DNA from: a virus | Virus record (IMG/VR): IMGVR_UViG_3300036846_000530 | Coordinates: 1-34,500 of that record | Strand: one strand, 5' to 3' | Length of the DNA stretch: 34,500 nucleotides | In this document: piece by piece, positions 7,558 through 33,121 of the stretch | Layout: each line of letters begins with the position of its first letter | Position numbering within the stretch: position 1 is the stretch's first letter | Notes under the pieces: generated by a model | What the model saw: the letters and a program-made list of their open reading frames with translations, nothing else | Told to the model about the DNA's origin: nothing | The model's database searches: none | Position numbers and translations under genes: made by a program

Positions 7558-7851
7558 ATGGCATTGACGACAAAACAGAGAGCGGCTCTCCCGTCCTCCG
7601 CATTTGCGTATCCGAGCCAGAGGAAATATCCGGTCCCAACCAAGGCTCAAGCTCAGAGAGCCGGGATTACGGAGAGGCAAAGAGTCGGCATCCATCGAGC
7701 GGCTTTGAGCCGGAGCGCTCAAACTAAGACGTCCGGCAGTTACCGCCATGTCTCCGGAGTTGTTGCCAAGCGCTCCGGAGGCAAGGTCACTCCAAAGAAT
7801 GTCTCCCAAGGGAGACAAAAGAGGCTTGCATCCCGAGGCAAGAGGACGTAA
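7558..7851 (+). CDS. DUF6582-like small basic head-region protein
   Basis: A 97-residue basic protein beginning LTTKQRAALPSSAFAYPSQRKYPV. This resembles the short domain seen in phage head regions with the pattern RxxLpxsaFavPxxRxYPi (DUF6582-like). The C-terminal third is rich in Ser, Lys and Arg. Its last codons carry the first copy of the genome's repeated dyad (7798-7819), here read as NVSQGRQK, the same peptide encoded by copy two at 18664. Function unknown; probable capsid-associated or maturation helper. Confidence 0.7.
   Translation: MALTTKQRAALPSSAFAYPSQRKYPVPTKAQAQRAGITERQRVGIHRAALSRSAQTKTSGSYRHVSGVVAKRSGGKVTPKNVSQGRQKRLASRGKRT
7798..7819 (-). repeat. 22-bp dyad element, copy 1 of 4
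   Basis: The core is TGTCTCCC-AA-GGGAGACA, perfect 8-bp arms around two bases. Oriented by its flanks (TTT on one side, ATT on the other), this copy lies on the minus strand with a TT centre. It sits within the end of the 7558-7851 gene. See the finding on the four copies. Confidence 0.85.
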
Positions 7852-7864
7852 TATCCCGCTTGAT

Positions 7865-7889
7865 CGGAGCGCGGCGCGATGCGGCTCCG
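7865..7889 (+). other. Short hairpin in the 155-base gap before the capsid gene
   Basis: Arms CGGAGC (7865-7870) and GCTCCG (7884-7889) could form a six-pair stem. The surrounding gap, 7852-8006, holds no convincing gene. It contains two related stretches, GGAGCG..GATGCGGCTC and GGAGCGATACGGCTC, about 60 bases apart. It may be a leader or processing site that raises capsid expression; no clear promoter was seen. Confidence 0.35.
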
Positions 7890-8006
7890 AGAGACAATCC
7901 TTGAGATTGAGGCAAAGGGAGCGAGTCCCGAGCCCGGAATAGTGCGGAGCGATACGGCTCGACCGGGTTGCCAGAGACAGATAAATCTCTAGCAACTAGG
8001 AGCGTT

Positions 8007-8993
8007 ATGCCGTCCATTGATGCCTCCGGGCTCATCCCGACTACTTACTCAAATCAAATCATCCAAGGAGTTGTCCAAGCCTCCGCCGCTCTGTCCTTGG
8101 GTCGGAGAGTCCCGATGGGCTCCGGCATTGCGGAGTTTCCCGTTGCCGGAGCCTTTCCGACCGCGGGCTTTATCGCGGCGGGAGGACGTAAGCCGTTTAC
8201 GGACTTTGCCTTGACCTCTAAGACAATGAAAGCGGAGGAAGTAGCCGCGGTCATTGCCATTCCTCAAGCGTACCTCGATGACTCATCCGTCGATTTATGG
8301 GGATATGCCCGTCCTCTCTTGGCTCAAGCCATCGCGGTAGCGCTCGATGATGCCGTCCTTTGGGGAGATAACAACCCTGCCTCTTATCCGCCCGGAGGCA
8401 TTACCGATCCGGCTTTTGCTACTGCCGTCCCTCCCGGAGCGGACCCGCTTGCCTCCGTCAATGATGCAATGGCCGCGGTCGAGGCTCAGGGAGTCCCGGT
8501 AACCGGCCATGCCGCGGACTTGGTAACCAAAGCCGCTCTCCGAGGGATTAGGGACGCGGCGGGAGCTTTGTTGCTTGGTCCGGCTCAGGTTGATAATCCG
8601 GCCATGTCGAGCATTTACGGAGTCCCGGTCATGTTTAACTTGACCTCCCCGGATGCAACTAGGGACTTTGTGACCGGAGATTGGGACGCTCTCTTGATGG
8701 GAGTCCGGCAAGATATCACTTATGACCTCTCGACCGATGGAGTCATTGTCGATGGAGCCGGAGCCGTTGTTGTGTCGGCTTTCCAAGATGACCAAGTGCT
8801 AATGAGGGTCCATGCCCGCTTTGGTTGCGTAGTGGCTCAACCCGTTACGCCGCGGGCTCCTACCGGAGCAAAGCCCTTTGCTTATACGGACATTGCCACT
8901 AGTGGCGGCGCGACAATGGCCGCGGGCTCGACCTCGACTCCGACTCCGGCTCCGACTCCGACTCCAACCTCATCCCGGAGCCGGTCGAGCTAA
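8007..8993 (+). CDS. Major capsid protein, HK97 fold
   Basis: About 328 residues from the ATG at 8007, which has AGGAG upstream; an in-frame TTG at 7968 would add 13 residues. The sequence PTTYSNQIIQGVVQASAALSLGRRVPMGSG, GAFPTAGFIAAGG, KTMKAEEVAAVIAIPQAYLDDSS and RPLLAQAIAVALDDAVLWGDNN follow the HK97-type capsid pattern (N-arm, E-loop, spine helix) common in actinophages. A C-terminal Thr/Pro low-complexity tail (TSTPTPAPTPTPTSS) extends past the fold. It abuts the Ig-like gene, which lies in the -1 frame. Confidence 0.92.
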   Translation: MPSIDASGLIPTTYSNQIIQGVVQASAALSLGRRVPMGSGIAEFPVAGAFPTAGFIAAGGRKPFTDFALTSKTMKAEEVAAVIAIPQAYLDDSSVDLWGYARPLLAQAIAVALDDAVLWGDNNPASYPPGGITDPAFATAVPPGADPLASVNDAMAAVEAQGVPVTGHAADLVTKAALRGIRDAAGALLLGPAQVDNPAMSSIYGVPVMFNLTSPDATRDFVTGDWDALLMGVRQDITYDLSTDGVIVDGAGAVVVSAFQDDQVLMRVHARFGCVVAQPVTPRAPTGAKPFAYTDIATSGGATMAAGSTSTPTPAPTPTPTSSRSRSS

Positions 8994-9340
8994 TGCCCGC
9001 TTGGACAAAGGTTGGCGGAAAGGTTTGGAAGGGAGGGACCGTATTGGGACCTCCGCCCGCTCCGCCTTTATCCAATCCGGTTGCCACTAGTTGCACTCCG
9101 CCCGGAGGTCCGATTGCCGGAGGGACTCCGGTACAGATTCATGGGACCGGATTTACCGGAGCCAACTATATTGAGTTTGGCGGCTCTCCATGCGGTCCTA
9201 CCGGACAGGATTTCGTTGTCGTTGACGACACTCTCATTACTTGCCAATCTCCGGCTCATGCCGCGGGAGCGGTCTATCTGACTATTGCCAATCCCGAATA
9301 CAACTACGGGAGTGACGCTCCCGTTTATACCTACGCGTGA
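8993..9340 (+). CDS. Ig-like (IPT/TIG domain) protein, probable capsid decoration
   Basis: A 115-residue protein whose start overlaps the capsid stop as TAATG. From about residue 28 it has the IPT/TIG pattern PVATSCTPPGGPIAGGTPV, IHGTGFTGANYIEFGG, then DDTLITCQSPAHAAGAVYL and TIANPE, two likely paired cysteines included. Ig-like folds on phage structural proteins usually decorate the virion surface and may bind cell-surface sugars. The frame is -1 to the capsid gene and open upstream to 8903, so a frameshifted fusion is conceivable. Confidence 0.82.
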   Translation: MPAWTKVGGKVWKGGTVLGPPPAPPLSNPVATSCTPPGGPIAGGTPVQIHGTGFTGANYIEFGGSPCGPTGQDFVVVDDTLITCQSPAHAAGAVYLTIANPEYNYGSDAPVYTYA

Positions 9341-9352
9341 CGGAGGCAGAGG

Positions 9353-9739
9353 ATGAGTAACGGGACCGCTCCGAGTTGGGAGGATTGGGCTCCGCCTTTG
9401 GACCCGCCTACCGCGGGAGCGGTCCCTTACGCTACCGCCGAGGCAATAGCGGCAACCTATTGGGACTCTGAGCCTCATTTGTGCGCGGCGCTCCAATGGG
9501 AATACTACGCATCAATGCAAGACCCGAGCCCGAGCGTTTCTCAAGTCTCAACCGGAGTCCAATCAATCGCTTACAACCCTGCCACTCCGAGCGGAGAATA
9601 TGGCAAGGCAATGTCAAGGGCTCAATGGCATCGGAGCTTCCTCTCCGGTTACTTGGAGACTGTCCCATTGGTTAGCTCCGTACCAAAGCCGGGTTGGTAT
9701 CCGTCTTGGTCCGACATAGCGGAGAGGGTTGTCGAGTAA
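9353..9739 (+). CDS. Head-tail connector, adaptor-like
   Basis: A 128-residue protein in the position of the adaptor that docks below the portal. The sequence is acidic N-terminally (WEDWAPPLDPPTAGAVPY), then TAEAIAATYWDSEPHLCAALQWEYYAS, and SYLETVPLVSS-like C-terminal segments. The family match is by gene order and general character, not a sharp motif. It has GGCAGAGG before the start and a TAATG overlap with the next connector. Confidence 0.62.
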   Translation: MSNGTAPSWEDWAPPLDPPTAGAVPYATAEAIAATYWDSEPHLCAALQWEYYASMQDPSPSVSQVSTGVQSIAYNPATPSGEYGKAMSRAQWHRSFLSGYLETVPLVSSVPKPGWYPSWSDIAERVVE

Positions 9740-10185
9740 TGGCTCCCTTGGTCGCGCCGGACCTCATAACGCTCTATCCGCCATCCGAGGACCTCGATGA
9801 GCATGGATGGCGGCTCCCGGCAACGGAGTCCTATTGGCAGGGAAAAGGCAACCTCCAACAGTATCCGGGCATATCCGACGTCCGCGCTTCCGATGGCGGA
9901 GGTCGAGGTCCGTTTGGTCCGGCAAGGGACCGGACCGGCTCGATGTTCCTGCCGGTCGAGGACCTCCAACTCATCGAGGGAAGCGTTGCCGAGTGTCGAG
10001 GTCGGTATTACTACCTAACGCAATGCCGCTTTGTTGGGGACCCGACCGGGACCGGGGACGGAAGCTCTCCGCTCGACATTTGGACGGCAACGGCAACGTC
10101 CTTTGATACTTGGCCGGGAGTTGAGGTCCCTCGACCCTATGGAGAGCCGGGAGAGCCCGCTCAGAGGCTCAGGGAGGCTCTCTAG
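9739..10185 (+). CDS. Head-tail connector, stopper-like
   Basis: A 148-residue protein starting at the ATG overlapping the previous stop. It is beta-rich, with GSMFLPVEDLQLIEGSVAEC and RGRYYYLTQCRFVGDPT; cysteines near residues 84 and 92. Position, size and the C-terminal proline-rich tail fit a head-closure (stopper) protein that locks DNA in the filled head. Assignment is by gene order. It ends in a TAGTG overlap with the tail-completion gene. Confidence 0.58.
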   Translation: MAPLVAPDLITLYPPSEDLDEHGWRLPATESYWQGKGNLQQYPGISDVRASDGGGRGPFGPARDRTGSMFLPVEDLQLIEGSVAECRGRYYYLTQCRFVGDPTGTGDGSSPLDIWTATATSFDTWPGVEVPRPYGEPGEPAQRLREAL

Positions 10186-10484
10186 TGTCCGGAGCGGCAT
10201 CGACGTACCAAGTCCTCAACCGTAAGGCTCCCAAGCAAGCCGCGGATGGGATTGTCCGAGGCATTGCGGAGCAAATCCGCGGAGCCGTAGCGGCTCAGAG
10301 CCCGAGAGGTCGGACCGGACGCTATGCCGGAGCTTGGCGGGTCGAGCGGATCAAGCCCGGTATTTACCGGGTCCTCAATGACACTCCCTACGGCAGATAT
10401 ATCGAATACGGGACTCGGTACGTCCATGCCCGTCCTGTCTTTGGTCGAGTGGTATCGACCTATCGAGCCAGGGTAAGCCGATGA
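10185..10484 (+). CDS. Tail completion protein, HK97 gp10-like
   Basis: A 99-residue basic protein with a GTG start overlapping the preceding TAG. RGRTGRYAGAWRVERI, YRVLNDTPYGRYIEYGTRY and HARPVFGRVVSTYRARV match the HK97 gp10-like neck family, whose members have a G.L..SW..... N.apYA..vEyGT..mpArPfl pattern. It joins the tail to the head. It overlaps the next start by four bases. Confidence 0.8.
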   Translation: MSGAASTYQVLNRKAPKQAADGIVRGIAEQIRGAVAAQSPRGRTGRYAGAWRVERIKPGIYRVLNDTPYGRYIEYGTRYVHARPVFGRVVSTYRARVSR

Positions 10485-10867
10485 GCGCGCCGGTCATTGC
10501 CCAACCGGACCTTGAGGCTTGGGTATGGGAGAACCTCAAGAGCCGTAAGGGAGTTACGTCCTTTGCATATCACTCGCTCCAAGACGTAGCGGGATGGCAA
10601 TGGCAATGGTCCCTCCAAATCGACGTAAGAGGACCGAGAAAGAAAGCTACTGCCGACCTCGCGGAGCTTGTCAGACAAGACCTCTTGAGCCTGCCGGACG
10701 TTTATTGGCCGGACGGCTCGATTACCTACGCGCAAATCACAGAGGGTCCAATGTGGAATCCCGACGTTAATGATGGCGCGCCGCGGTACACAATCCGCAT
10801 TGATTACCGGGTCCATCCGTCCCGGACTCAATACCTCTCTAACACTGTGAACACTAGAAAGGAATAA
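10481..10867 (+). CDS. Tail terminator-like protein
   Basis: A 128-residue protein following the gp10-like gene, where the tail terminator is normally found. PDLEAWVWENLKSRKGVTSFAY, WQWQWSLQIDVRGPRKKATADLAELV and YTIRIDYRVHPS give an alpha/beta fold with the strand-helix-strand pattern of gpU/gp17-like terminators, which cap the tail tube and set its end. Assignment by position and fold pattern. Confidence 0.65.
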   Translation: MSAPVIAQPDLEAWVWENLKSRKGVTSFAYHSLQDVAGWQWQWSLQIDVRGPRKKATADLAELVRQDLLSLPDVYWPDGSITYAQITEGPMWNPDVNDGAPRYTIRIDYRVHPSRTQYLSNTVNTRKE

Positions 10868-10872
10868 CCCGG

Positions 10873-11484
10873 ATGAGCAATGTTGACCTTGACCCAAGCG
10901 AAATCCTACTTGGCATTAATAACGGTCCCGGAGTGTATCGGGCTCCCGTAGGGACTCCGCCACCCGCGGACCTCCAAACCGCGTGGGATACACCTTGGGA
11001 GCCGATTGGTTATATCTCCGATGACGGAGTGACTGTATCCTCAACGACAACCTCCGACACTCTGACTCCCTGGCAATCGACCTCTCCGGTAAAGACCATG
11101 ATTACCGGCAAAGAGTTGACGGCTCATTTCATTATGTGGCAAACCAACCCGGACACTCTGGCAATGTATTTCGACATGCCTCCCGCCACCGCGGACGCGG
11201 GCGGGATGGTTGCCTTTGATATCCGCTCCGACGTAGGCGGGGAGCTTTATGCCATCGGGCTCGATATCAAGGATGCCGGAGTCATTACTCGGATTGTCTT
11301 TGGTCGAGCCCAAGTCTCCGATACCGGGGACGTTTCATTCCAACGCGGCGCGGCTATTGGTTGGGAGGTAACCCTCTCGGCAATGGATGAGGCAGGAGTC
11401 TTGGCTCATTTGATGAGCGGTCCCGAGGTTGTCGTCCCTCTCGGAGCCTCATCGAGCCGGACCTCTCAGACTCCCGCGGCATGA
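10873..11484 (+). CDS. Major tail (tube) protein
   Basis: A 203-residue beta-rich protein right before the tail chaperone genes. GVYRAPVGTPPPADL, WEPIGYISDDGVTVS, TTSDTLTPWQSTSPVKTMITG and IGLDIKDAGVITRIVFGRA are characteristic of the actinophage tail tube family, which stacks as hexamers around the tape measure. The C-terminus is Ser/Thr-rich. It ends with an ATGA overlap into the chaperone gene. Confidence 0.85.
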   Translation: MSNVDLDPSEILLGINNGPGVYRAPVGTPPPADLQTAWDTPWEPIGYISDDGVTVSSTTTSDTLTPWQSTSPVKTMITGKELTAHFIMWQTNPDTLAMYFDMPPATADAGGMVAFDIRSDVGGELYAIGLDIKDAGVITRIVFGRAQVSDTGDVSFQRGAAIGWEVTLSAMDEAGVLAHLMSGPEVVVPLGASSSRTSQTPAA

Positions 11485-11834
11485 GCTTTGACCTCAAGGC
11501 GGCAACTCAAGCCGCCCAATCCGAGGCAGGCAGAGAGCCCTTTGAGTTTGATTGGGGGGGAGAGCATTTCTCCCTCCCGCCAATGGGCTTATGGCCGTTG
11601 AGCATCTCGGCAACGTTCGCGGCCTATTCCGAGCTAAAGCCCGAGGACATAAACCCGAATGAGGTTGTCCTCTGTCTCCGGCAGATTGTTGGAGAGGATG
11701 AATGGGTCCGCTTTTCCTCGACCATCCCGCTCGATGCCATGCCGATACTCATTGAGGAAATGAGCAAGGAGCAACTCGGAGGCTCGATGCCGGATTTATC
11801 CGAGCGGCAAGAGCCCGTTTCGATCCCGACATAG
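11481..11834 (+). CDS. Tail assembly chaperone, first product (G-like)
   Basis: A 117-residue acidic protein: EPFEFDWGGEHFSLPPMGLWPLS, then AAYSELKPEDINPNEVVLCLRQIVGEDEW. This resembles tail chaperones (lambda gpG-like) of actinophages that keep the tape measure soluble. The next gene lies in the -1 frame, and that frame is open from 11756 through this stop, so a share of ribosomes probably shifts to make a longer product. Confidence 0.78.
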   Translation: MSFDLKAATQAAQSEAGREPFEFDWGGEHFSLPPMGLWPLSISATFAAYSELKPEDINPNEVVLCLRQIVGEDEWVRFSSTIPLDAMPILIEEMSKEQLGGSMPDLSERQEPVSIPT

Positions 11835-11842
11835 AAGCCGCC

Positions 11843-12163
11843 ATGATGGCGGTATATGGGATTGACGTCCTCGATCCTGCCGTATCACTTAGGCGGATCA
11901 AGGTCCTATCGGAGCGCTTGCCGCTTGGGTCATTGACAAGACATGAGCCCGCTAGTTGGACCCATGAGGCTCATTTGCTAGCGCGGCTCAATGATGCCGT
12001 CGATTTATTGACTTGGATTGTCATGCGGGTTGCGGGCTCCAAAGCCAAGCAACCAAAGCCGCTTGAGCGTCCCGGTCAACCAAAGCCGCGAGGTCAACAA
12101 ATGAGTTGGGGACAACTAGGCGGCTTCCTAAAGGCAGAGGGAGCGTCAACAAATGGCCGGTGA
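11843..12163 (+). CDS. Tail assembly chaperone, second (frameshift, T-like) part
   Basis: A 106-residue frame (from ATG 11843) in the -1 frame relative to the first chaperone. Read upstream of the ATG, the frame continues as ARFDPDIEAAMMAVYGIDV, matching the usual junction of G-T chaperones where an acidic DIEA..YGIDV stretch opens the T domain. It is therefore probably made mainly as a G-T fusion. No textbook slippery heptamer was seen between 11756 and 11834. The C-terminus is Pro/Lys/Gln-rich and it overlaps the tape measure start by 11 bases. Confidence 0.75.
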   Translation: MMAVYGIDVLDPAVSLRRIKVLSERLPLGSLTRHEPASWTHEAHLLARLNDAVDLLTWIVMRVAGSKAKQPKPLERPGQPKPRGQQMSWGQLGGFLKAEGASTNGR

Positions 12164-18651: not shown

Positions 18652-18858
18652 ATGACCGAGGAAAATGTCTCCCAAGGGAGACAAAGGGAGATACCGAGAG
18701 AGCGCTTCCGGGACAGGGAGGGTCGAGAGCTTGAGGTCAAATGGCCGCGAGCCCGCAAAGAGCCCAAGACGGAGCCGTCCGAGGGTTGGGCTCTATTTGA
18801 GGACCGGCCCGAGCCCGAGGACTCCGAGGATGAGATTGGATATGAGGGAGAGCGCTAA
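18652..18858 (+). CDS. Small highly charged protein before endolysin
   Basis: A 68-residue product from an ATG four bases after the previous stop. It is dominated by Arg, Glu and Lys (REIPRERFRDREGREL, then EDRPEPEDSEDEIG). Codons 5-12 carry copy two of the repeated dyad and read NVSQGRQR. It overlaps the endolysin start by one base. Function unknown; such charged linkers sometimes turn out to be poorly conserved. Confidence 0.55.
   Translation: MTEENVSQGRQREIPRERFRDREGRELEVKWPRARKEPKTEPSEGWALFEDRPEPEDSEDEIGYEGER
18664..18685 (-). repeat. 22-bp dyad element, copy 2 of 4
   Basis: Identical over 22 bases to copy 1 at 7798-7819, in the same orientation. It lies inside the 18652-18858 gene, in the same reading register (NVSQGRQ) as copy 1. 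Confidence 0.85.
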
Positions 18859-20176: not shown

Positions 20177-20542
20177 ATGGCGCGACGGAGAACATCGACG
20201 GCAATACCGGGCGGAGACTCGGTAGGGCTCGATACCGCCATGCTCAAATGCCGATTGATCCGGCATAGGTGGGATGAGTTTTATCCGGCCAATATGGGGA
20301 CTCCGTTGTATGGATGGAGGCTCTCTTTGCGTTGCGACCGTTGCACCGCGGAGCGGCATGACCTCATCGACTATGCCGGTCGGTTGATTCCGGGGAGCCG
20401 GAGATATATCTATCCCGAGGGTTACCAAATGAAGCGGGATGAGACTCCGGACCGGGAGACAATGATGCTTTCCCTATTCGACCGAGTGAAGGTCCGCTTA
20501 GATAAGGCGGACGCAATCGGAGCAATGGAGGAAGCGTCTTAA
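20177..20542 (+). CDS. Conserved actinophage-type early protein with zinc knuckle
   Basis: 121 residues, preceded by AGGAGG. The core CRLIRHRWDEFYP, GWRLSLRCDRCTAERHDLID and YIYPEGYQMKRDETPDR follows a pattern seen in early genes of many actinobacterial phages (CR..gH.Wd......G...W.lslrC.rC.teRhdlid). The CxxC plus upstream Cys/His probably bind zinc. Function is not known. First gene of the early accessory operon; its stop overlaps the ParB-like start. Confidence 0.72.
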   Translation: MARRRTSTAIPGGDSVGLDTAMLKCRLIRHRWDEFYPANMGTPLYGWRLSLRCDRCTAERHDLIDYAGRLIPGSRRYIYPEGYQMKRDETPDRETMMLSLFDRVKVRLDKADAIGAMEEAS

Positions 20543-21423
20543 TGGTTACAAGGCTCAAGCGACCCTCTGCCGTAAGGGCAAATGGTCAAGTAGTGAAGCC
20601 AAACGTCCGCATCGAGACAGTGACTCCGGAGCGGGCGGAGAAAATGTTGCTAGAGGCAAACGTCCGTAACCGGGATATCCGGGAGTCGAGGGTTGTCCAT
20701 CTTGCCGAGAATATAAAGCGGGAGGAATGGACCCTCTCGACCGATTGCTTGGGATTCGACCTCGATGGAGTCTTGCTCAATGGGCAACATCGGCTTGCCG
20801 CTTGCGTTGCCTCCGGTATGCCCATTGAGGTTGGCATCTTTCGCAACCTGCCGCGCAAGAGCCAAGACATTATGGATGACACTCTCCGGCGCGGGTTGGG
20901 AGATGCTCTCAAGCTCCGGGGAGAGGTTGACGTATTCCGGCTTGCCGCGGGCATTGGTTGGTATGCCCGGATCATTTATGCCGAGATGACCGGGACTCCG
21001 CATTATGCCGACAACGCTCGACGTCCCTCGATTCCTCAACTCTTGCAAGTCTTTGATGAGAACCAAGGACTCCGGGACGGCTTGACCAAGACGGCTCCGG
21101 CCATGAGAGCGCTCAAGCTCCGTCCGGGTCCGGCTCTCTCCGTTTGGTATCGGCTCTCCCTTGTCCATGCCGCGGAAGCGGATTTGTTCTATGACAAGCT
21201 CCGCTCCGGCGCGGACCTCTCGGAAGGGAGCCCGATACTGGCTCTCCGTCGATACTCGCAAGAGGAAGTCAATCGAGGTCGAGGACGGCAACGCAACCCG
21301 GACTTTCGTTGGGTTGCCATTTGCTTTAAGGCTTGGAACGCTTGGAGGGAGGGACGCTCGATAAAAGTCCTGAGCTATTCCTACACTCCGACAACCCGCG
21401 AGGCATGGCCGGAGCCGGTATGA
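20542..21423 (+). CDS. ParB/Sulfiredoxin-fold (DGQHR-like) protein
   Basis: 293 residues. The N-terminal half has the ParB-like layout: ITPERAEKMLL-type opening (VTPERAEKMLLEANVRNRDIR), HLAENIKREEWTLSTD, and the signature LNGQHRLAACVASGMPIEV near residues 78-96, where ParB-type CTPase/nuclease folds carry GQHRL. The C-terminal half (about 110-290) is helical and unassigned. No ParA partner is visible, so partition is unlikely; a DNA-binding or nuclease/accessory role in early infection is inferred. Confidence 0.78.
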   Translation: MVTRLKRPSAVRANGQVVKPNVRIETVTPERAEKMLLEANVRNRDIRESRVVHLAENIKREEWTLSTDCLGFDLDGVLLNGQHRLAACVASGMPIEVGIFRNLPRKSQDIMDDTLRRGLGDALKLRGEVDVFRLAAGIGWYARIIYAEMTGTPHYADNARRPSIPQLLQVFDENQGLRDGLTKTAPAMRALKLRPGPALSVWYRLSLVHAAEADLFYDKLRSGADLSEGSPILALRRYSQEEVNRGRGRQRNPDFRWVAICFKAWNAWREGRSIKVLSYSYTPTTREAWPEPV

Positions 21424-22268: not shown

Positions 22269-22475
22269 ATGGGATATATGTATGTCTTGGGCGATTGCTT
22301 TGCCTGCCATCGTCCCTTTTATTTCTCGGCGGAGCGGGTCCCGTCGATTGTGTTTAACGGAGAGCGGGAGCCTGTCTGTGAGAGTTGCGTCCGGCTTGCC
22401 AATCCGGAGCGGGTCAAGAATGGCTTAGAGCCTATTGTCATCTTGCCGGGAGCGTATGAGCCCGATGAGGTCTAA
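22269..22475 (+). CDS. Zinc-ribbon protein
   Basis: 68 residues with GGGAGG at 22257-22262 as ribosome site. CFACHRPFYFSAERVPSI followed by VCESCVRLAN gives two CxxC knuckles about 27 residues apart. This format is frequent in actinophage early regions (MyvlG.C.aCgrpf..NP..VPS........vC..Cv...N). The tail GLEPIVILPGAYEPDE is typical of that family. Function unknown. Confidence 0.75.
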   Translation: MGYMYVLGDCFACHRPFYFSAERVPSIVFNGEREPVCESCVRLANPERVKNGLEPIVILPGAYEPDEV

Positions 22476-22494
22476 CCATAAGGGGAATCCGTCC

Positions 22495-22737
22495 ATGCCT
22501 CGCTTGACTGTCCAAGTCTCCGATGAGGTCTTTAAAAAAGTCAAGGCATTGGGCATCCCGGTATCCCTCACTTGCCAGAGAGCCCTAATCGACGCGGTAG
22601 CGGTCCGGGAGGCTCCAACGGACGCTCAAGGGACAATCTCGGAGCTACTGGTCTTTATCGGTACGTCGCGGGAGCGGCTCAATCGGTTGGAGGACGTCCT
22701 AACCAATGGCGCGAGTAACGATTTATTTGCCCGATGA
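22495..22737 (+). CDS. Ribbon-helix-helix protein 1
   Basis: 80 residues. The N-terminal 45 (MPRLTVQVSDEVFKKVKALG, then IPVSLTCQRALIDAVAV) have the strand-helix-helix pattern of MetJ/Arc-type DNA-binding antitoxins and regulators. The C-terminal half (SELLVFIGTSRERLNRLEDVLT) is helical, likely for dimer contact. It overlaps the paralogous gene 22706-22918 and probably regulates phage or host promoters. Confidence 0.72.
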   Translation: MPRLTVQVSDEVFKKVKALGIPVSLTCQRALIDAVAVREAPTDAQGTISELLVFIGTSRERLNRLEDVLTNGASNDLFAR

Positions 22738-22918
22738 GGTCCATCGACGCGCTAAGGCAAGCGGGCTCAAGTTAAGTCCGGTATGCCGTCGAGCCATCAT
22801 GGCGGCTCTCTCCGTTGCCGAGACAGAGCCCGAGGGAGCGGAGGTTACGGATGAGGTTTGGCAATGGCTCGACCGAGGACGAAAGCTCATCGAGCAACTC
22901 CAAGACTTTCTCGCATGA
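22706..22918 (+). CDS. Ribbon-helix-helix protein 2 (paralogue)
   Basis: 70 residues, overlapping the previous gene by 32 bases. MARVTIYLPDEVHRRAKASG then LKLSPVCRRAIMAAL aligns with the N-terminus of its neighbour (strand, PDEV/SDEV turn, Ser-x-x-C-x-R-A-I/L), showing a tandem duplication. C-terminal helices (DEVWQWLDRGRKLIEQLQDFL) differ. The two may form a heterodimer. It precedes the gap with two 11-bp elements, possible targets. Confidence 0.72.
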   Translation: MARVTIYLPDEVHRRAKASGLKLSPVCRRAIMAALSVAETEPEGAEVTDEVWQWLDRGRKLIEQLQDFLA

Positions 22919-26373: not shown

Positions 26374-26389
26374 CCTCCCTCAAGGGAGG
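26374..26389 (+). promoter_or_regulatory. Hairpin that can mask the ribosome site of the 26394 gene
   Basis: CCTCCCT (26374-26380) pairs with AGGGAGG (26383-26389), two bases between. The 3' arm is the ribosome site for ATG 26394, four bases downstream. Base pairing would hide it, so translation may be controlled. The two-base loop is tight for RNA, so the innermost pair may open. Confidence 0.45.
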
Positions 26390-26393
26390 TCCA

Positions 26394-26633
26394 ATGGGCA
26401 ACCTGAGCGATGAGGACCGGGAGCGGGTCCTTGCCAACGCGCGGCGCGACAGAGAGCGGCAGGGACTCCCGGAAGCCGTCGAGGACGTCGGCATCCGTCA
26501 ACGGGTCGGAGCCTTACTCATCCGGGTCCATGAGCGGCTTGGCAAGGCTCCGCGGTCCGGGACGGAGCCCAATCCGGGAGTGATACGCTCCGCAAAGCAA
26601 GGCAGAGGACCCGAGCGGATTGGGGACCGTTGA
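26394..26633 (+). CDS. Small basic hypothetical protein
   Basis: 79 residues. LSDEDRERVLANARRDRERQ, DVGIRQRVGALLIRVHERLG and a basic, flexible C-terminus. Very rich in Arg and Glu and mainly helical. No family recognised. Located between integrase and repressor, so a lysogeny-related or regulatory role is possible. Ends in a TGATG-type overlap. Confidence 0.58.
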   Translation: MGNLSDEDRERVLANARRDRERQGLPEAVEDVGIRQRVGALLIRVHERLGKAPRSGTEPNPGVIRSAKQGRGPERIGDR

Positions 26634-26848
26634 TGCCAAAGGACGCGACGGAGAGCGGCAAAGTATCCTTAAGGGAAGGGATGCCCAATGGGGACGTTAG
26701 AGCTTTGGAAGCTACGCTTAAGACGGCAGAGGATTTGGTCCGGAGCCTTCCGGACGCGCCGGAGGTTACCGAGTTAATCGGCTTGATTACCCGCGCGTTG
26801 TCCCTGGCAGGGACCCTTGCGGATGGTTGTTGGACAGAGCCGGATTAG
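26633..26848 (+). CDS. Small hypothetical protein, convergent with repressor
   Basis: 71 residues from the ATG sharing a base with the previous stop. MPKDATESGKVSLREGMPNG, RALEATLKTAEDLVRSLPDA, then EVTELIGLITRALSLAGTLA. Two amphipathic helices. Its 3' end overlaps the end of the leftward repressor gene by 62 bases tail to tail. Function unknown. Confidence 0.52.
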   Translation: MPKDATESGKVSLREGMPNGDVRALEATLKTAEDLVRSLPDAPEVTELIGLITRALSLAGTLADGCWTEPD

Positions 26849-27182
26849 CTCTTAAATGAGCGAGCATCGAGAGCAATACGCTCTTTTCCGATGCCGTCAA
26901 CGTTGCCTCCGTTTGGATAAAGTCCTCAAGCATAGGACGCTCATCGAGGCTTATGTCCTCCGCATTTATCCTCATGCCCGCGGCTTGCAAGAGTCTCTTT
27001 GAGTCCGCTCCGAGAGCTTCCGCGAGCCTTTGTATGGTTATTCGCGGTATACGGTCCCCGCGCGCGCCAGTCTCTAACTGAGACAGATAGCCTCCGGATA
27101 TCCGAGCGCGAGATGCAACCTCTGTCTGTGAAAGACCGGCGCGCTTCCTGAGATTGACTAAAAGGGTCCCTAACTCCGTCAT
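26787..27182 (-). CDS. XRE-family repressor (immunity regulator candidate)
   Basis: 131 residues, the only leftward gene. The N-terminal HTH is clear: ELGTLLVNLRKRAGLSQTEV, ASRARISGGYLSQLETGARG, IPRITIQRLAEALGADSKRL. The C-terminal part (about 75-131) is helical (TEATLTASEKSVLLSMLAHL), with no peptidase signature, so cleavage-based induction is unlikely. Start ATG at 27182 preferred over the upstream frame. An 11-bp element lies eight bases upstream of it. The gene sits opposite the rightward replication operon, as an immunity repressor would. Confidence 0.88.
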   Translation of the reverse strand: MTELGTLLVNLRKRAGLSQTEVASRARISGGYLSQLETGARGDRIPRITIQRLAEALGADSKRLLQAAGMRINAEDISLDERPMLEDFIQTEATLTASEKSVLLSMLAHLRANPALSNNHPQGSLPGTTRG

Positions 27183-27190
27183 CTCACTTA

Positions 27191-27201
27191 TCCCTGTTCT
27201 C
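27191..27201 (-). promoter_or_regulatory. 11-bp element GAGAACAGGGA, copy 5 (upstream of repressor)
   Basis: Exact copy on the minus strand, eight bases before the repressor ATG, so it contains or neighbours the ribosome site. Possible autoregulatory operator or start-associated sequence. Confidence 0.65.
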
Positions 27202-27207
27202 CCAAGA

Positions 27208-27247
27208 TTGCCTCTTGACGGACCTTTGCTCAAGTGCAAGACTCCGT
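27208..27247 (+). promoter_or_regulatory. Candidate rightward promoter of replication operon (block B)
   Basis: TTGCCTC followed by TTGACG (27215-27220) and, 16 bases on, CAAGAC. The block shares TTGCCTC, TTGACGG, TTGC, AGTGC and AAGACTC in order with block A at 20063-20106. It lies between the divergent repressor and replication genes. No other gene in 27183-27355. Confidence 0.55.
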
Positions 27248-27355
27248 TAACTACGGCGCTAACACTAATCGACTCTTAGCAATGGAGCGAAAGTCTAGCG
27301 CCAAGTCCTTACCGCGGAGACAGAGCTTCTAAACAGGGAGGGAGGTCGGGACCGC

Positions 27356-27709
27356 ATGGTCAACCGTCCCTTGGCGGATGGAACTAAGGGAGAGGTCGCA
27401 ATCGTCCGGACTCTCCGACCCTTGTATCCAATGGCAGAGCGGCGCGCCAAAGAGGGATTCAAGGACCGGGGAGACATTGGCGGGATTGCTCCCGGAGTTG
27501 TCATCGAGTCCAAGCATTGCCCGCGGAGCTACGCGATAGCGGAGTGGCTCAAAGAGTGTGACCGCGAAATGCATAACGATAATGCCAATCTTGGCGTGGT
27601 TTGGTTCAAGCTAAAAGGCAAGACCGACCCTCTTGATTGGCCGGTAATGATGCGCGGTCGAGTCTTTGTCCCTTTGCTCAAGACTTGGACTAATAACAAT
27701 GGGCATTGA
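27356..27709 (+). CDS. PD-(D/E)XK endonuclease, Holliday-junction-resolvase-like
   Basis: 117 residues, with GGGAGGGAGG upstream. The fold pattern is KGEVAIVRTLRPLYP (E13), FKDRGDIGGIAPGVVIESKH (D40 and E51-x-K53), then an amphipathic helix (IAEWLKECDREMHNDNANLG) and VVWFKLKG. This matches archaeal Hjc-like and phage resolvase-type PD-(D/E)XK nucleases. In the phage it would clear branched replication intermediates. Replication operon starts here. Confidence 0.8.
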   Translation: MVNRPLADGTKGEVAIVRTLRPLYPMAERRAKEGFKDRGDIGGIAPGVVIESKHCPRSYAIAEWLKECDREMHNDNANLGVVWFKLKGKTDPLDWPVMMRGRVFVPLLKTWTNNNGH

Positions 27710-27881
27710 GCCCGAGGATCGGATTGTCAGAGTTGATGGCTTACGGCATCGACCCTTGACAGTTATTGCCTTATGCGAGGACCCGCGCCGAGCTTGGGTC
27801 ATCGAGTCCTTTAATCAGGGACTCATTGACGGCAACGCTTACGTTATCGACCTCGACGGTTACCGAGCGCTCAAGCCCTAG
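27699..27881 (+). CDS. Small hypothetical protein
   Basis: 60 residues, overlapping the resolvase by 11 bases. EPEDRIVRVDGLRHRPLTVI, ALCEDPRRAWVIESFNQGLI, DGNAYVIDLDGYRAL. Short alpha/beta protein without recognised family. It is followed by copy three of the dyad element. Confidence 0.55.
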   Translation: MGIEPEDRIVRVDGLRHRPLTVIALCEDPRRAWVIESFNQGLIDGNAYVIDLDGYRALKP

Positions 27882-27885
27882 TCCG

Positions 27886-27907
27886 TTTGTCTCCCAAGGG
27901 AGACATT
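27886..27907 (+). repeat. 22-bp dyad element, copy 3 of 4
   Basis: The only intergenic copy (between 27881 and 27929). TTT then GTCTCCCAAGGGAGAC then ATT, plus orientation with AA centre. The 3' flank ATTCC is shared with copy 4. An in-frame TTG inside it could extend the next protein N-terminally (LSPKGDIP), the same peptide as encoded at copy 4. Confidence 0.85.
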
Positions 27908-27928
27908 CCAAAGAGATTGGGGACCGAT

Positions 27929-28132
27929 ATGAGTACCGTTACTCGACTATTTCCCGACGTCGAGCCCATGCCTCGACCTCCCAAGCCGGACATTGCTCCG
28001 CTTTGTGAGTGTGGTTGCGGGCAACGGGTCAAGGGTCGGACTAATGGGATTTGGTCCCGATGGAGAGCGGGTCATCAATACAAGAGCAACGTTGGACCTA
28101 TCCCGCTAAGGGTCCTCCGGGGAGGTAACTAA
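27929..28132 (+). CDS. Small zinc-knuckle protein
   Basis: 67 residues from ATG 27929; a TTG at 27887 would add 14 residues. PLCECGCGQRVKGRTNGIWS followed by RWRAGHQYKS forms a CxCGC plus His zinc-binding pattern that recurs in actinophage proteins (C.CGCG........f..GH). Function unknown. Its stop overlaps the exonuclease start. Confidence 0.65.
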   Translation: MSTVTRLFPDVEPMPRPPKPDIAPLCECGCGQRVKGRTNGIWSRWRAGHQYKSNVGPIPLRVLRGGN

Positions 28133-29148
28133 TGCCCAAATATGCCGTTGATATCAACGGGACCCGTCGATACTGGCATCCTCGACGGCATGATAAGGCT
28201 CCGGGATATTGGAGCGTTACCAACGTAACCGGCGCGCTTCCCAAGATGGGCTTGCTCTATTGGGCGGCAAATGAAACGGCGCGGTATGCCGTTAATCATC
28301 TTGAGGCTTGGACTCATCTTCCGATGGAGGACCAATATGACTTGCTCCGTAAGGTCCCTTGGACCCAACGCGACCGGGCCGGAGCTAGAGGCTCAACCGT
28401 CCATGCCGTTGCCGAAAACATCATGCGCGGTAAGTCATATGAAGCGGAGGCAGTAATCGAGCCGTGGCTCCAATCCCTCAAGCGCTTTATCTCCGATGCC
28501 CAACCTCGACCGTTAATGACGGAGGTAACGGGTTACTCGGAAAAGACTATGACGGCAGGGACGTTTGACTTGCTTTGCAAGCTCAAAAACGCTCCCGAGC
28601 TTGGAAACGTCCTCTTGGATTGGAAAACGTCCAAGGGAGTTTATGAGGATATGGGAGTCCAACTAGTCGGCGGATATGCCTTGGGCTTTGAGTATGTCCT
28701 CGACCCGGATGACCAAGAGCTTGAATGGAAGCCTCCGGATACCTGTCTCATTGTCCATTTGGCTCAGGACGGATATAGCGCTCGACCCGTACCAATCGAC
28801 CGGGCATACCGTCGAGCCTTTCTCGGAGCCCTAGAGATACGCAAGTTTGAGGACGGGACTCCGGGCATTGGTAATGCTCTGAGCTTCCAACGGGAGGATG
28901 AGCCTCCCTTTAGCACTATCCCAACCAACGCGGAGCTTAACCATTTGCGGGAGCGGCTCAAGCTCTTGACCCATGAGCAACAACTAGAGCTTATGACCGA
29001 GCTTGACGCGGCAGGGATAACAACCATCCCTAAGCGGATGAGCGTCGATGACCTCGACCGGGCTCTTGGATTCCTCAAGCGATATGAGATAACGGCAGAA
29101 ATGAAAGCCGAAATACAAAGCCGCCGCCCATCGCGGCCAATGCCATAA
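28132..29148 (+). CDS. Cas4/RecB-like PD-(D/E)XK exonuclease
   Basis: 338 residues. Motifs in order: GSTVHAVAENI (H91), EVTGYSEKTMTAGTFDLLCK (E131, D146), NVLLDWKTSKGVYEDMGVQL (D163, K165, Q177) and GGYALGFEY. This is the RecB/Cas4-type nuclease arrangement, including the glutamine motif QLVGGYA. C-terminal 100 residues form a helical extension (LRERLKLLTHEQQLELMTEL). There is no obvious Fe-S cysteine set. Likely makes 3' tails for recombination together with the ssDNA-binding protein that follows. Confidence 0.85.
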   Translation: MPKYAVDINGTRRYWHPRRHDKAPGYWSVTNVTGALPKMGLLYWAANETARYAVNHLEAWTHLPMEDQYDLLRKVPWTQRDRAGARGSTVHAVAENIMRGKSYEAEAVIEPWLQSLKRFISDAQPRPLMTEVTGYSEKTMTAGTFDLLCKLKNAPELGNVLLDWKTSKGVYEDMGVQLVGGYALGFEYVLDPDDQELEWKPPDTCLIVHLAQDGYSARPVPIDRAYRRAFLGALEIRKFEDGTPGIGNALSFQREDEPPFSTIPTNAELNHLRERLKLLTHEQQLELMTELDAAGITTIPKRMSVDDLDRALGFLKRYEITAEMKAEIQSRRPSRPMP

Positions 29149-29159
29149 GGGAGGCTCAA

Positions 29160-29609
29160 ATGCCAAGCATTTATGATGACCCGGAGTTGCAACCGGAGCC
29201 TAATGAGTTTCCGGATTCCGTCGAGTTTCATCAACGGGGAGACAGGGTAAGGGCTCGCATCAATCGGATGGAGCCGCTCAAGACCCGGTATGGGACATGC
29301 GCTAAATACTGGCTCTTTGACCTCGACCGGAATATGGAAAGGACCATGCTCGCGGGAGCTAAGAATCTATGGGGACAACTCCTAACGCTCAAGCCCGAGG
29401 TCGGAGATACCGTCGATATCGAGCTAGTGGACTTTGCCAAGAATGAAAACGGGACGGCAAAGCTCTTTGAGGTATCGGTCGAGCGCTCCGGAGAGGGACC
29501 GGCTCCGGTCCGGGAGCCTCAACGTCCGAGCCCGAGCCCGCAACCCGTAGCGGCATCCCGGACGGCTCCGGCATATGCCGATGAGGATGAGGACCTTTTT
29601 GAGCGTTGA
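29160..29609 (+). CDS. Putative single-strand DNA-binding protein
   Basis: 149 residues. GDRVRARINRMEPLKTRYGT, AKYWLFDLDRNMERTMLAGA, VGDTVDIELVDFAKNENG give a five-stranded OB-like pattern. The C-terminus is a Pro/Ser-rich linker ending in acidic DEDEDLFER, similar to the acidic tails of SSB-type proteins that recruit replication partners. Assignment from fold pattern, tail and its place between exonuclease and primase. Confidence 0.68.
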   Translation: MPSIYDDPELQPEPNEFPDSVEFHQRGDRVRARINRMEPLKTRYGTCAKYWLFDLDRNMERTMLAGAKNLWGQLLTLKPEVGDTVDIELVDFAKNENGTAKLFEVSVERSGEGPAPVREPQRPSPSPQPVAASRTAPAYADEDEDLFER

Positions 29610-30225
29610 GCCAGATATCGAGCTTGCCTTGTCATTCCTAAGCTTTGTATTTGCCTCCGCATTGGAGGGAGGTTACGTCAACCTCTTTGGCATCGAGCGC
29701 GGCTCCGGCCAACGTCGGACGGCTTGGGCTCCGGTCGAGGACCTCTCCAAGCTCGCGGAGCCCTTATGGAGACTAGGGACGCGCGGGGACGTTTGGTTTG
29801 GTTGCGCGCTCCGCAAAGAGCCTCTCCCCAATGGGCAACGCGGCGGAGTTGTCGATTGCCTCTCGATTACTGGCCTATGGCTCGACGTCGATGTTGCCGG
29901 AGCCGGTCATCGGTTGGCCGGTCAAGCCAAGAGCTTTGATGAGGCAAGGCTCTTTATCAATCGGCATCCGGCCAAGCCGGACGCAATCGTCCGCTCCGGG
30001 CATGGCTTCCAAGCATGGTGGCTTGCCGTCGAGCCGCTCTATGCCAATGAGGCATTGGACTATTTAGCTCGATGGCGGGTTACTTGGTTGGCCTATGCCA
30101 AAGAGGCAGGCATTGTCATTGATGACGTATGGGACCTCCCGCGGATAATGCGGGTCCCTGGCACCTATAACCATAAAGGCTCTGAGCCGGTCAAGGTTAC
30201 GGCTCGATGGAAAGGACATAGATAA
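29587..30225 (+). CDS. Primase-polymerase (prim-pol type)
   Basis: About 212 residues; in-frame starts at 29575, 29581 and TTG 29599 also possible. The catalytic GLWLDVDVAGAGH motif (D100, D102) and the downstream RSGHGFQAWW (H139) are hallmarks of archaeo-eukaryotic-type primase-polymerases of phages and plasmids. VWDLPRIMRVPGTYNHKG near the C-terminus is the RP.tlN.K motif. It overlaps the helicase start. It would prime phage replication. Confidence 0.85.
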   Translation: MRTFLSVEPDIELALSFLSFVFASALEGGYVNLFGIERGSGQRRTAWAPVEDLSKLAEPLWRLGTRGDVWFGCALRKEPLPNGQRGGVVDCLSITGLWLDVDVAGAGHRLAGQAKSFDEARLFINRHPAKPDAIVRSGHGFQAWWLAVEPLYANEALDYLARWRVTWLAYAKEAGIVIDDVWDLPRIMRVPGTYNHKGSEPVKVTARWKGHR

Positions 30226-31763
30226 TGCCGTATCAATGGTCCGAGTTGTTGGACTCCATGCTCCCGATGCCGGAGCCATCGAGCAACGGCAAGGCTCATT
30301 CCTCGACCTCGACGGCTCATTTGGCCGGGTCAAGGTTTAATGAGCAAGCCGTTTACGGCAAGATATTGGAGGCTTTCGGTCATTGCGAATACGTCCGGAC
30401 CTCTGGCATCGAGGAACATTGGCACTATCGCAACTCCGAGAATGACGTAAGCGCGACCCATTATCTCGATGATGACCATTTAACCATTTGGTCGGAGACA
30501 ATGGCGCGAGAGCTTGGCTTAGAGGTCCGACGTCCTTACGATAAGTTTGGCTTTTGGGGGATGGTCAAGCATGGCGGAGACTTTCACGCCGCGCATGATG
30601 AGCTAGTCCATGTCGGCATCGGAGACAATCTCTACCGTCCGAGCGGGTTGACGGCAAAGGACGTATTAGCAACTCCGCTTATTGTCCCGACCGGCTTGGT
30701 AATCATTACTGCCTCCGAGGTAACTCCGGTCCGGGCTCAATGGCTTTGGCCGGGTTGGGCTCCGAGAGGCAAGCTCTTGGACTTTGCCGCCGATCCCGGT
30801 ACGGGAAAGTCAACGGTAACTAATGACCTTGGAGCCCGAGCTACCAATGGAGAGCCGATGCCCGGACAAACGGACCCGACCTTTCCTGCCTCATCGGTCC
30901 TCTATCTATCCGGAGAGGATGACCTAAGCGATACAACCATATGGAGGCTCAAAGCCGCGGGAGCGGACCTCACCCGGATTCACCATATCCAAGCGGCAAT
31001 GACCGAGGACGGACCGGAGCCGGTAGTCATCCCGCGGGATATCGGGCTCATCGAGGAAGCCGTCCAACGGACGCGCTCCGCCATTGTCGTCATTGACGTC
31101 CTCAATGAATACCTCGACGGCAACGTTGACAACTACCGGGATACTCAAATCCGGCGCGCTCTGGCTCAACTCCGGGACATGGCCGGTCGGACCAATGCAA
31201 CCGTTGTCATGCTCCGGCATCTCCGCAAAGAGGGAGGCAAGGCTCTTTACCGCGGCGCGGGCTCGATAGGGATTGTCGGAGCCGCTAGAGCCGCTTGGAC
31301 GGTAGGCCATCATCCCGAGGACCAAAGCCTCCGGGTCTTGGCGGTAACCAAGATGAATCTTGCTATTGAGCCAATCCCTATTGCTTTTAAGCTAATGCCG
31401 GTAGAGGATAGTGACGTTGCCCGCGTCGATTGGAGAGGGACCGTTGAGGGAATCAATGCGGACCAACTCCTAACCGACAGGACTCCGGAGGACCCGGAGG
31501 AAAGGCAGAGCAAGCAATCCAAGCTCGACCTCGCGGTCAAGGCAATCCGAGAGGTCCTCAAGGATGGTCCGGTTTGGAGCAATGAGTTACTCGATGCCGT
31601 TGTCAATAAAGGAAGGTTGGTAAGCCTTAGCACATATGAGAGAGCCCGAGCCAAGCTCGACAAACAACTAGATACCAAGCGGGAGCGGATGCCGGACGGA
31701 ATCATGGGATGGAGAGTCCATCTCATTCAAGACCCTCAAGACCCTCAAGGGTCGGAGGTATAG
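30225..31763 (+). CDS. RecA/DnaB-like replicative ATPase (RepA-type helicase)
   Basis: 512 residues. Walker A DPGTGKST (190-197) and Walker B SAIVVIDVLNEYLDG (D291), sensor region ATVVMLRHLRKEGG and GAARAAWTVGHHPE match AAA_25/RepA-like hexameric helicases that follow prim-pol genes. The first 150 residues (residues 40-140) are a separate domain. The C-terminal 90 residues look like a winged-helix domain (LDLAVKAIREVLKDGPVWSN, LSTYERARAKLDKQLDTKRE), possibly binding the repeats that begin inside its last codons. Confidence 0.88.
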   Translation: MPYQWSELLDSMLPMPEPSSNGKAHSSTSTAHLAGSRFNEQAVYGKILEAFGHCEYVRTSGIEEHWHYRNSENDVSATHYLDDDHLTIWSETMARELGLEVRRPYDKFGFWGMVKHGGDFHAAHDELVHVGIGDNLYRPSGLTAKDVLATPLIVPTGLVIITASEVTPVRAQWLWPGWAPRGKLLDFAADPGTGKSTVTNDLGARATNGEPMPGQTDPTFPASSVLYLSGEDDLSDTTIWRLKAAGADLTRIHHIQAAMTEDGPEPVVIPRDIGLIEEAVQRTRSAIVVIDVLNEYLDGNVDNYRDTQIRRALAQLRDMAGRTNATVVMLRHLRKEGGKALYRGAGSIGIVGAARAAWTVGHHPEDQSLRVLAVTKMNLAIEPIPIAFKLMPVEDSDVARVDWRGTVEGINADQLLTDRTPEDPEERQSKQSKLDLAVKAIREVLKDGPVWSNELLDAVVNKGRLVSLSTYERARAKLDKQLDTKRERMPDGIMGWRVHLIQDPQDPQGSEV

Positions 31764-31868
31764 AAAACATGAGGGAGATGAGGGTCTTAACCCTTGACAC
31801 TCAAGACCAAGACCCTCAAGACCGGCAGGATTCCATACCCTTGAGGGTATGAGGGTCTTGAGGGTCTT
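31729..31868. repeat. Iteron-like cluster, candidate replication origin
   Basis: AAGACCCTC occurs exactly at 31729, 31738 and 31809 (plus strand) and inverted at 31780, 31851 and 31860. A dyad CATACCC-TTGA-GGGTATG lies at 31834-31851. Two partial copies lie at 31803 and 31818. The first two are inside the end of the helicase gene; the rest fill the 137-base gap. The gap is locally AT-richer. Such clusters beside replication genes are typical origins or initiator operators. Confidence 0.62.
31794..31822 (+). promoter_or_regulatory. Possible promoter within iteron cluster
   Basis: TTGACA (31794-31799), 17 bases, CAAGAC (31817-31822). The -10-like CAAGAC recalls the TAAGAC and CAAGAC of blocks A and B, but the iteron itself contains AAGAC, so this may be chance. 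It would drive the 31901 gene. Confidence 0.35.
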
Positions 31869-31900
31869 AACCGATAACCAAGCAAAGAAAGGCATAAGGC

Positions 31901-33121
31901 ATGGCAAAGGACGTTGATACCAAGGACCCGGATGAGGACCTATTCGGCTCGATGAGGGACGGAGTGGCAGAGCCGGAGCAAGCCGTCGAGGTAGTCCCGG
32001 AGGCAGAGGTCGAGGTCGAGACAAAAGAGCAAAGAGCGGCGCGGCTCAAGTCTCTCCGCGAGGATGAGGCAATCATTGAGTCCGGGCTCTCGACCTTTAA
32101 GGACGTTGGTTGGGCTCTAATGCGGATACGGGACGGCAAGACATATCGGAGCCTCTCGGACGAATACAAGACCTTTGAGGACTACTGCCAACGTCGATGG
32201 GATATCTCTAGGGCTCAAGGCAATCGGCTTATGGCCGCGGCGGACGTTACTGCCGTTTTGTCTCCCAAGGGAGACATTCCGGAGCCCAAGCGAGAGCGGC
32301 AAATCCGGGAGCTAACTCCGCTCAAGGATGACCCGGACGCGATGCAAAGGGCTTGGACGGATGCCGTTGGGCTTGCCAATGGAGAGCAACCAACGGCTCT
32401 CCAAGTCCGGGAAGCCGTCGATAATGTCCGGGAGCCGGAGCCTACTGCCGGAGTCGGAGAGCGCGGGCATCCTGCCGTTTACTCTCGACCCGTCCTCCGG
32501 GTTATTCGGGAGCTATTGGGCGGAGACTCCGAGCGATACAAGAGGGTCCTCGACCCGTTTGCCGGGACCGGGCGGATACATGACCTCCGCGAGTACGGCT
32601 TTGAGACAATCGGCATCGAGCTTGAGAAAGAATGGGCGGACCTCTCGGAGTTTACAAAGCAAGGGACCGCGCTAAAGACCGGGCTCCGTAAGGGCTCCGT
32701 CGATGCCGTTGCAACCTCTCCGACCTATGGCAACCGGCTTGCCGACAGTTATGAGGCAACGGACCCGGACCGGAGGCATAGCTACCATTTCGACCTTGGC
32801 CGGAAGCCGTCCGAGGGAAGCTCTGCCGTCATGCCTTGGGGAGATGAGTACCGAGCCTTTCACGTTAAGGCTTGGGAGGAAGCGGTCCGAGTCCTCAAGT
32901 CCAATGGTCGATTTATCCTCAACATCAAGGACCATATCCGGGACGGAGAATGGCAAGACGTAGCGGCTTGGCATGTCTCAACCATCATGGCTCTCGGCTT
33001 CACAATGGCCGCGGTTAGGCCGGTATCGACCAAGGGAGTCCCGAGTGGAGCTAATGCCGAGGTCCGCTCCGAGGCAGAGCTTGTCTTTGCGTTTGATCGA
33101 GTGACCGGGGAGGGAGAGTAA
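31901..33121 (+). CDS. DNA methyltransferase with N-terminal helical (ParB-HTH-like) domain
   Basis: 406 residues. Residues 55-180 (GLSTFKDVGWALMRIRDGKT, YCQRRWDISRAQGNRLMAAA, ERQIRELTPL) resemble the region found in phage ParB-like regulators. From about 195 a class I methyltransferase follows: SAM site LDPFAGTGRIHDL (218-224 core), ETIGIELEKEW, catalytic ATSPTYGNRLADSY (SPTY in place of SPPY), and VLKSNGRFILNIKDHIR. It is probably an N4-cytosine or N6-adenine DNA methylase. Dyad copy four lies in codons 119-126. It may modify phage DNA against host restriction. Confidence 0.85.
   Translation: MAKDVDTKDPDEDLFGSMRDGVAEPEQAVEVVPEAEVEVETKEQRAARLKSLREDEAIIESGLSTFKDVGWALMRIRDGKTYRSLSDEYKTFEDYCQRRWDISRAQGNRLMAAADVTAVLSPKGDIPEPKRERQIRELTPLKDDPDAMQRAWTDAVGLANGEQPTALQVREAVDNVREPEPTAGVGERGHPAVYSRPVLRVIRELLGGDSERYKRVLDPFAGTGRIHDLREYGFETIGIELEKEWADLSEFTKQGTALKTGLRKGSVDAVATSPTYGNRLADSYEATDPDRRHSYHFDLGRKPSEGSSAVMPWGDEYRAFHVKAWEEAVRVLKSNGRFILNIKDHIRDGEWQDVAAWHVSTIMALGFTMAAVRPVSTKGVPSGANAEVRSEAELVFAFDRVTGEGE
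32257..32278 (+). repeat. 22-bp dyad element, copy 4 of 4
   Basis: Identical to copy 3 over 22 bases and in the same orientation, inside the methyltransferase gene at the joint between its two domains. Read in frame as LSPKGDIP. Confidence 0.85.

Follow-up and report, generated by a model that had tools for sequence, protein, structure and literature searches.

A repeated phage palindrome as the probable cognate site of a helix-turn-helix protein that carries it within its own gene

We analysed a 34,500-nucleotide stretch of viral DNA (positions 1 to 34,500 of IMG/VR record IMGVR_UViG_3300036846_000530; the window), in which an 18-bp palindromic core, TGTCTCCCAAGGGAGACA, occurs exactly four times. 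Comparison with relatives makes it very probable that this element is the cognate, dimer-type DNA site of a helix-turn-helix (HTH) protein encoded in the window at 31901-33121. One copy lies within this gene, directly after the codons of the putative recognition helix, and the letters of the corresponding palindromes in relatives change together with residues of that helix. Our best explanation as a whole, to which we give a probability of about 0.72, would combine the cognate site with autoregulation of the gene and control of further operons. The evidence throughout is sequence comparison, mostly of uncultivated phages. The features concerned are as follows.

31901-33121, plus strand: gene of the proposed binder, with an N-terminal HTH domain and a C-terminal DNA methylase
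32024-32440, plus strand: predicted DNA-binding domain, residues 42-180, all-helical in the structure model
32210-32257, plus strand: putative recognition helix, residues 104-119, with the covarying residues R104, A105, N108 and R109
32257-32278, plus strand: intragenic palindromic site TTTGTCTCCCAAGGGAGACATT in gene 31901-33121, encoding LSPKGDI (residues 120-126), at the homologous position in relatives
32699-32971, plus strand: Pfam match PF01555 (N6_N4_Mtase), residues 267-357
27886-27907, plus strand: dispersed copy, intergenic, between a stop at 27881 and an ATG at 27929, 224 bp 5' of the gene at 28132
18664-18685, minus strand: dispersed copy near the start of the small open reading frame (ORF) 18652-18858 (read as NVSQGRQ), upstream of the lysin gene
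7798-7819, minus strand: dispersed copy near the 3' end of ORF 7558-7851 (NVSQGRQ), about 0.2 kb before the start of the major capsid gene

The element and the palindrome in relatives

The core occupies 7800-7817, 18666-18683, 27888-27905 and 32259-32276, with AA at the centre on the plus strand in every copy. No further match with up to three mismatches was found in the window, where 0.21 would be expected by chance. The first-pass annotation of this DNA had reported four exact, distant copies, flanks that match only when the first two copies are reversed, and three copies in genes with two different readings. All of this was borne out: copies 1 and 2 have to be reverse-complemented before their outer flanks match the TTT...ATT of copies 3 and 4, and copies 1 and 2 are read as NVSQGRQ, copy 4 as LSPKGDI.

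The full 22-mer was found in only five other contigs among 2.9 million in IMG/VR, and the 18-mer core in 12 contigs. In L002, L003, L004, L005 and L016 the core falls at one place in homologues of gene 31901-33121, where it encodes LSPxGD; the homologue in L003 has a tandem pair of such dyads. The 18-mer matches in L001, L010, L011 and L013-L015 were set aside, as these contigs have no detectable family member and several matches may be chance. L001 contains the full 22-mer at 3377-3398, near the start of a different gene (321 amino acids, no Pfam match). Among INPHARED phages there was no near match to the window DNA or to the HTH domain. The window is of temperate type and encodes a serine recombinase and an XRE repressor; an exact 127-bp terminal repeat (1-127 = 34374-34500) closes the record to a circular map of 34373 bp.

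We gathered homologues from genomes and viral contigs. Proteins with the dyad seeded the first alignment, and the patterns used in later searches were taken from outside the dyad. After 19 cyanobacterial GGYRR proteins had been set aside, 127 unique genes remained, and in 83 of them all seven arm pairs are intact just after the recognition helix, which in many homologues reads R-x-x-A-Y-R-L-I-x-A-A. Perfect dyads occurred at a rate of 4.7% in an equal upstream stretch of the same genes and of 5.1% in synonymous recodings, indicating that the protein sequence alone does not explain the palindrome. The arms differ among relatives (TGGCTCC, TGCCAAC, TGACAAC, TGGGACC, TGTCTAC, TGTGCGC and others) and are read in two main frames, the 83 perfect-dyad genes having 50 distinct half-sites. 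Of 51 new genes from plasmids and genomes, 38 have a perfect dyad. One gene (L097, also G042) contains three tandem palindromes, with half-sites TGTGTAC, TGGGAAAG and TGGGAACC. In L128-L151 (cyanobacteria, mostly Nostoc) FEEYC...GGYRRINQLL replaces the usual helix, and no dyad is found there.

Helix residues and half-site bases

We compared the half-site bases with every column of the domain, and the outer TG with the 24 positions from FE on, where FE is Phe92 of the window protein and FE+12, +13, +16 and +17 are R104, A105, N108 and R109. Base 3 was best explained by FE+16 (z 12.8; tyrosine goes with T in 34 of 34), base 4 by FE+13 (z 14.9; arginine with G, 25 of 25), base 6 by FE+17 (z 14.2; arginine with C, 22 of 23) and the outer TG by FE+12 (z 9.4 and 13.8; arginine with TG, 56 of 56). 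Columns 13, 16 and 17 outranked every other domain column for bases 4, 3 and 6, respectively, and according to the structure model columns 12, 13, 16 and 17 would share one face of the helix. When genes were grouped by identical sets of six helix residues, all seven half-site bases agreed within each of the 11 groups, at 38-73% identity elsewhere in the domain.

Since some homologues are related, these z-scores overstate independence, and tests on pairs and on new genes are fairer. Among 41 disjoint closest pairs, used as a control for relatedness, the links of column 13 with base 4 (p 6.5e-5), 12 with base 2 (p 9e-4) and 16 with base 3 (p 1.4e-3) held, and mismatched control links were not significant. 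For 20 non-redundant independent genes the top prediction was right 19, 15, 15 and 17 times at bases 2, 3, 4 and 6 (baselines 18, 13, 9 and 12), so that prediction improved clearly on the baseline at bases 4 and 6 and slightly at bases 2 and 3.

These comparisons strongly indicate that the helix reads the site; roughly, R104 would recognize the outer TG, N108 base 3, A105 base 4 and R109 base 6. The domain (residues ~40-180) is predicted to prefer TTTGTCTCCCNNGGGAGACATT over the sites of the two closest relatives, G013 and G014. The earlier proposal of a DNA-level site for a phage-encoded DNA-binding protein is thus supported by the palindromes of relatives and their covariation with the helix, and the comparison with relatives that had been suggested as a check proved decisive: the dyad stays in the HTH gene and its letters follow the helix.

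The structure model of the window protein is confident (mean pLDDT 88.8), with a helix at 104-119. None of the members tested had a Pfam, NCBIfam or informative PHROG match over the N-terminal domain, and a PDB sequence search with the first alignment gave no match. For a ParB/Srx CTPase domain there was no Pfam match in the N-terminal domain of the window protein, where the model shows helices only. Foldseek with the domain model ranked Raf1 first (E 0.05); the nearest DNA-binding folds, KorB (TMt 0.57) and SopB (0.54), were weak, all with E above 0.05, and a profile search matched Noc weakly (E 1.2-4.9). The proposed binder weakly resembles the DNA-binding domains of KorB, SopB, P1 ParB and Noc. 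What follows the domain varies among relatives (N6_N4_Mtase, Dam, MT-A70, or DUF5131, of unknown function), and many dyad-bearing members have no recognised C-terminal enzyme domain.

Dispersed copies, proposed function and reach

The two closest relatives belong to the same phage group as the window, with a large terminase gene ~80% identical and a shared gene order. G013 has TGGCTCC in its HTH gene and in four other places (three with one mismatch), and G014 has TGCCAAC in its HTH gene and in three other places (one with one mismatch); the dispersed copies have switched together with the gene copy. In each, a variant lies 5' of the homologue of gene 28132, as in the window, and a G013 variant with one mismatch lies shortly before the capsid start, matching the window place; the other places have moved. 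Extra own-type copies numbered 13 in 26 genomes, versus one foreign match in 315 swap tests. That several places change letters together with one helix points to a reader acting in trans, and this is the step on which the argument turns.

We propose that the protein, bound to the intragenic site, would keep its own gene from being transcribed. Such negative autoregulation is the leading function, and we find it slightly favoured, for two reasons: the only site that almost all members with a dyad have in common is the intragenic one, and enzymes of the M.SsoII type act in this way from an intergenic palindrome (PMC3978073). More tentatively, at a little under even chances, the three or four further copies in this phage genus, of which several lie immediately 5' of genes or operons, may place the capsid, the lysis region and gene 28132 under the same control. 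Since the helix codons are directly followed by the site, the linker LSPKGDI, and LSPxGD-type linkers in general, would be protein sequence dictated by a DNA site. With operator and reader in one gene, specificity could change, and the module could move between phages and plasmids or onto different C-terminal enzymes, without loss of the target; the protein and its site seem to evolve together, as a single portable unit.

The same habit may extend further. L012 matches PF11300 (DUF3102), a family seldom named in the papers searched, and gp51 of mycobacteriophage DeadP is its relative; in both genes a perfect palindrome of 24 bp occupies the corresponding position. In L012 (1-489, minus strand) the DUF3102 gene carries AAATGTCTCCCCGGGGAGACATTT, read in another frame (NVSPGRH). 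In DeadP, a cultured phage (L363, NC_023728), the DUF3102-like gene at 35534-36331 follows two repressor genes and contains AAATCGTGGCAATTGCCACGATTT, which occurs once and is longer than any other perfect palindrome in the 56-kb genome. This layout suggests homology of the window domain to DUF3102; the window protein itself gave no PF11300 match above the cut-off, and the DUF3102 alignment is too diverse for scanning. Five plasmid members (Azospirillum, Rhodovastum) have no dyad at that place, the DeadP relatives L413 and L414 yielded no informative intact gene, and 397 genomes of the Streptomyces phylum contained four DUF3102 matches. The palindromes of L012 and DeadP are two cases and no rule.

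On balance we think it somewhat more probable than not that such proteins form widespread, self-addressed DNA-binding modules, with the target behind the helix, dozens of specificities and a simple residue-to-base code. In phages, plasmids and chromosomes alike, these modules would be reused beside ParA and in front of various enzymes that modify DNA. A phrase search of the literature gave no match for intragenic operators or intragenic parS. To learn which sequence a DNA-binding protein recognizes usually takes an experiment; in this family the gene itself appears to spell out the target. The many natural protein-site pairs, with their dozens of specificities, offer material on the evolution of recognition codes, and a likely function is suggested for unnamed HTH proteins fused to DNA methylases, perhaps also for DUF3102.

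Several observations weigh against our best explanation. No perfect dyad was found in 44 of the 127 genes, nor at this place in the 19 cyanobacterial GGYRR members. The pair test for column 17 and base 6 was borderline (p 0.053), base 3 barely exceeded its baseline in the independent genes (15 versus 13 of 20), and cross-validation without relatives of at least 50% identity fell to 53, 46 and 43 of 69 (baselines 45, 14 and 25). The window's own pairing of N108 with T3 is a minority case (2 of 19 asparagines), and the fold matches to ParB, KorB and Noc are weak. Most other phages have the gene copy only, and within a few kb of the gene relatives mostly lack extra own-type copies (9 in 82 loci versus 22 in 410 foreign tests); a role of dispersed copies would then be special to this genus.

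Alternative readings and known systems

The main alternative, which we consider unlikely though it deserves weight, is a centromere-like (parS-type) site that marks DNA for segregation now or did so in an ancestor, the protein being a ParB analogue without the CTPase domain. It draws on the weak resemblance to partition proteins and on gene neighbourhoods: in two non-phage relatives a ParA-type ATPase gene lies immediately 5' of the family gene, namely on a Streptomyces plasmid, where the two overlap by 4 bp, and in L110, a Chloroflexaceae contig with the intragenic dyad; and DUF3102 genes follow ParA genes on Azospirillum plasmids. However, no ParA was identified in the window, none of the other tested neighbours is a ParA, and the Azospirillum genes have no dyad at that place. 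The ParA-type ATPases at 2682-3449 in L110 and 3534-4496 in L415, directly upstream of family genes, suggest partition modules with an unusual ParB partner.

Less probable still, the HTH domain may bring the fused methylase to its sites for DNA modification. Fusions do recur with several enzymes (N6_N4_Mtase, Dam, MT-A70) and with DUF5131, but the many dyad-bearing members with no recognised enzyme domain, and the single site in most genomes, within the gene itself, argue against it. The earlier guesses of a ParB site or a methylation mark nevertheless came close, the candidate binder being weakly ParB/KorB/Noc-like and fused to a methylase, although the ParB-like protein then named gained no support.

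Operators or stoperators of the XRE repressor would suit a temperate-type window with dispersed sites. We regard them as very improbable, since across relatives the dyad is found within the HTH gene and its letters vary with the helix encoded there. We saw no evidence connecting the sites with the XRE repressor or the phrog_5931 protein, both suggested as binders in the first-pass annotation; the sites covary with the HTH domain at 31901-32440.

26787-27239, minus strand: XRE repressor, not supported as binder
20542-21423, plus strand: ParB-like protein, phrog_5931 (unknown function), not supported as binder

The ParB-like protein is 68-71% identical in G013 and G014. The two ribbon-helix-helix proteins, also suggested, fare no better: comparison with G013 and G014 gave no homologue of 22435-22737, and one of 22706-22918 in G013 only.

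An RNA hairpin in the mRNA, for which palindromes within transcripts with covarying arms might speak, has hardly any probability left: a hairpin needs a loop, yet of 78 even sites 55 and 75 remain symmetric at the two innermost positions; dispersed copies are also found between genes and with their flanks in either orientation; and a site bound as DNA would be expected to covary with an HTH helix. Equally improbable is a selfish palindromic insert, for which the palindromic elements of Rickettsia are the comparison, or a set of recombination sites of the serine recombinase: the reading of the dyad in different frames at one place and the central AA dinucleotide fit, but the sequence follows the helix of the same gene and most genomes have no consistent extra copies.

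For the dispersed sites, mycobacteriophage stoperators are the closest parallel, as sites of a phage protein that are scattered over the genome and vary between phages (PMC9283540, PMC6550527). The analogy, drawn already in the first-pass annotation, broadly holds for dispersed sites covarying with a DNA-binding protein and fails in symmetry: stoperators are asymmetric, numerous and bound by the immunity repressor, whereas the element here is symmetric (18-bp dyad core), has few copies, and has one of them in the reader's own gene.

ParB, Noc and KorB, with parS, NBS and OB, share with the proposed pair a helical DNA-binding domain, a palindromic site and few specificity residues. One Bacillus subtilis parS reportedly lies within spo0J. 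These systems differ in having few, conserved sites, whereas the family here has ~50 specificities in 83 genes; in addition, no CTPase domain is seen in the window protein, and its structural and profile matches to them are weak. In ParB Arg173 contacts guanine 1, and in Noc a glutamine pairs with adenine 1 (PMC7383237), a residue logic (Arg-G, Gln-A) resembling that at FE+17.

Enzymes of the M.SsoII type have an N-terminal regulatory HTH domain before the methyltransferase, bind a short palindrome unlike their methylation site and repress their own gene (PMC3978073). The window protein likewise has a predicted N-terminal DNA-binding domain (HTH helices in the model) fused to a DNA methyltransferase (PF01555). 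M.SsoII is a C5 methyltransferase, whereas the window methylase is of the N6/N4 type; and the 15-bp M.SsoII site, AGGACAAATTGTCCT, is intergenic, whereas the window site lies in coding sequence, at a fixed place, and diversifies with the helix.

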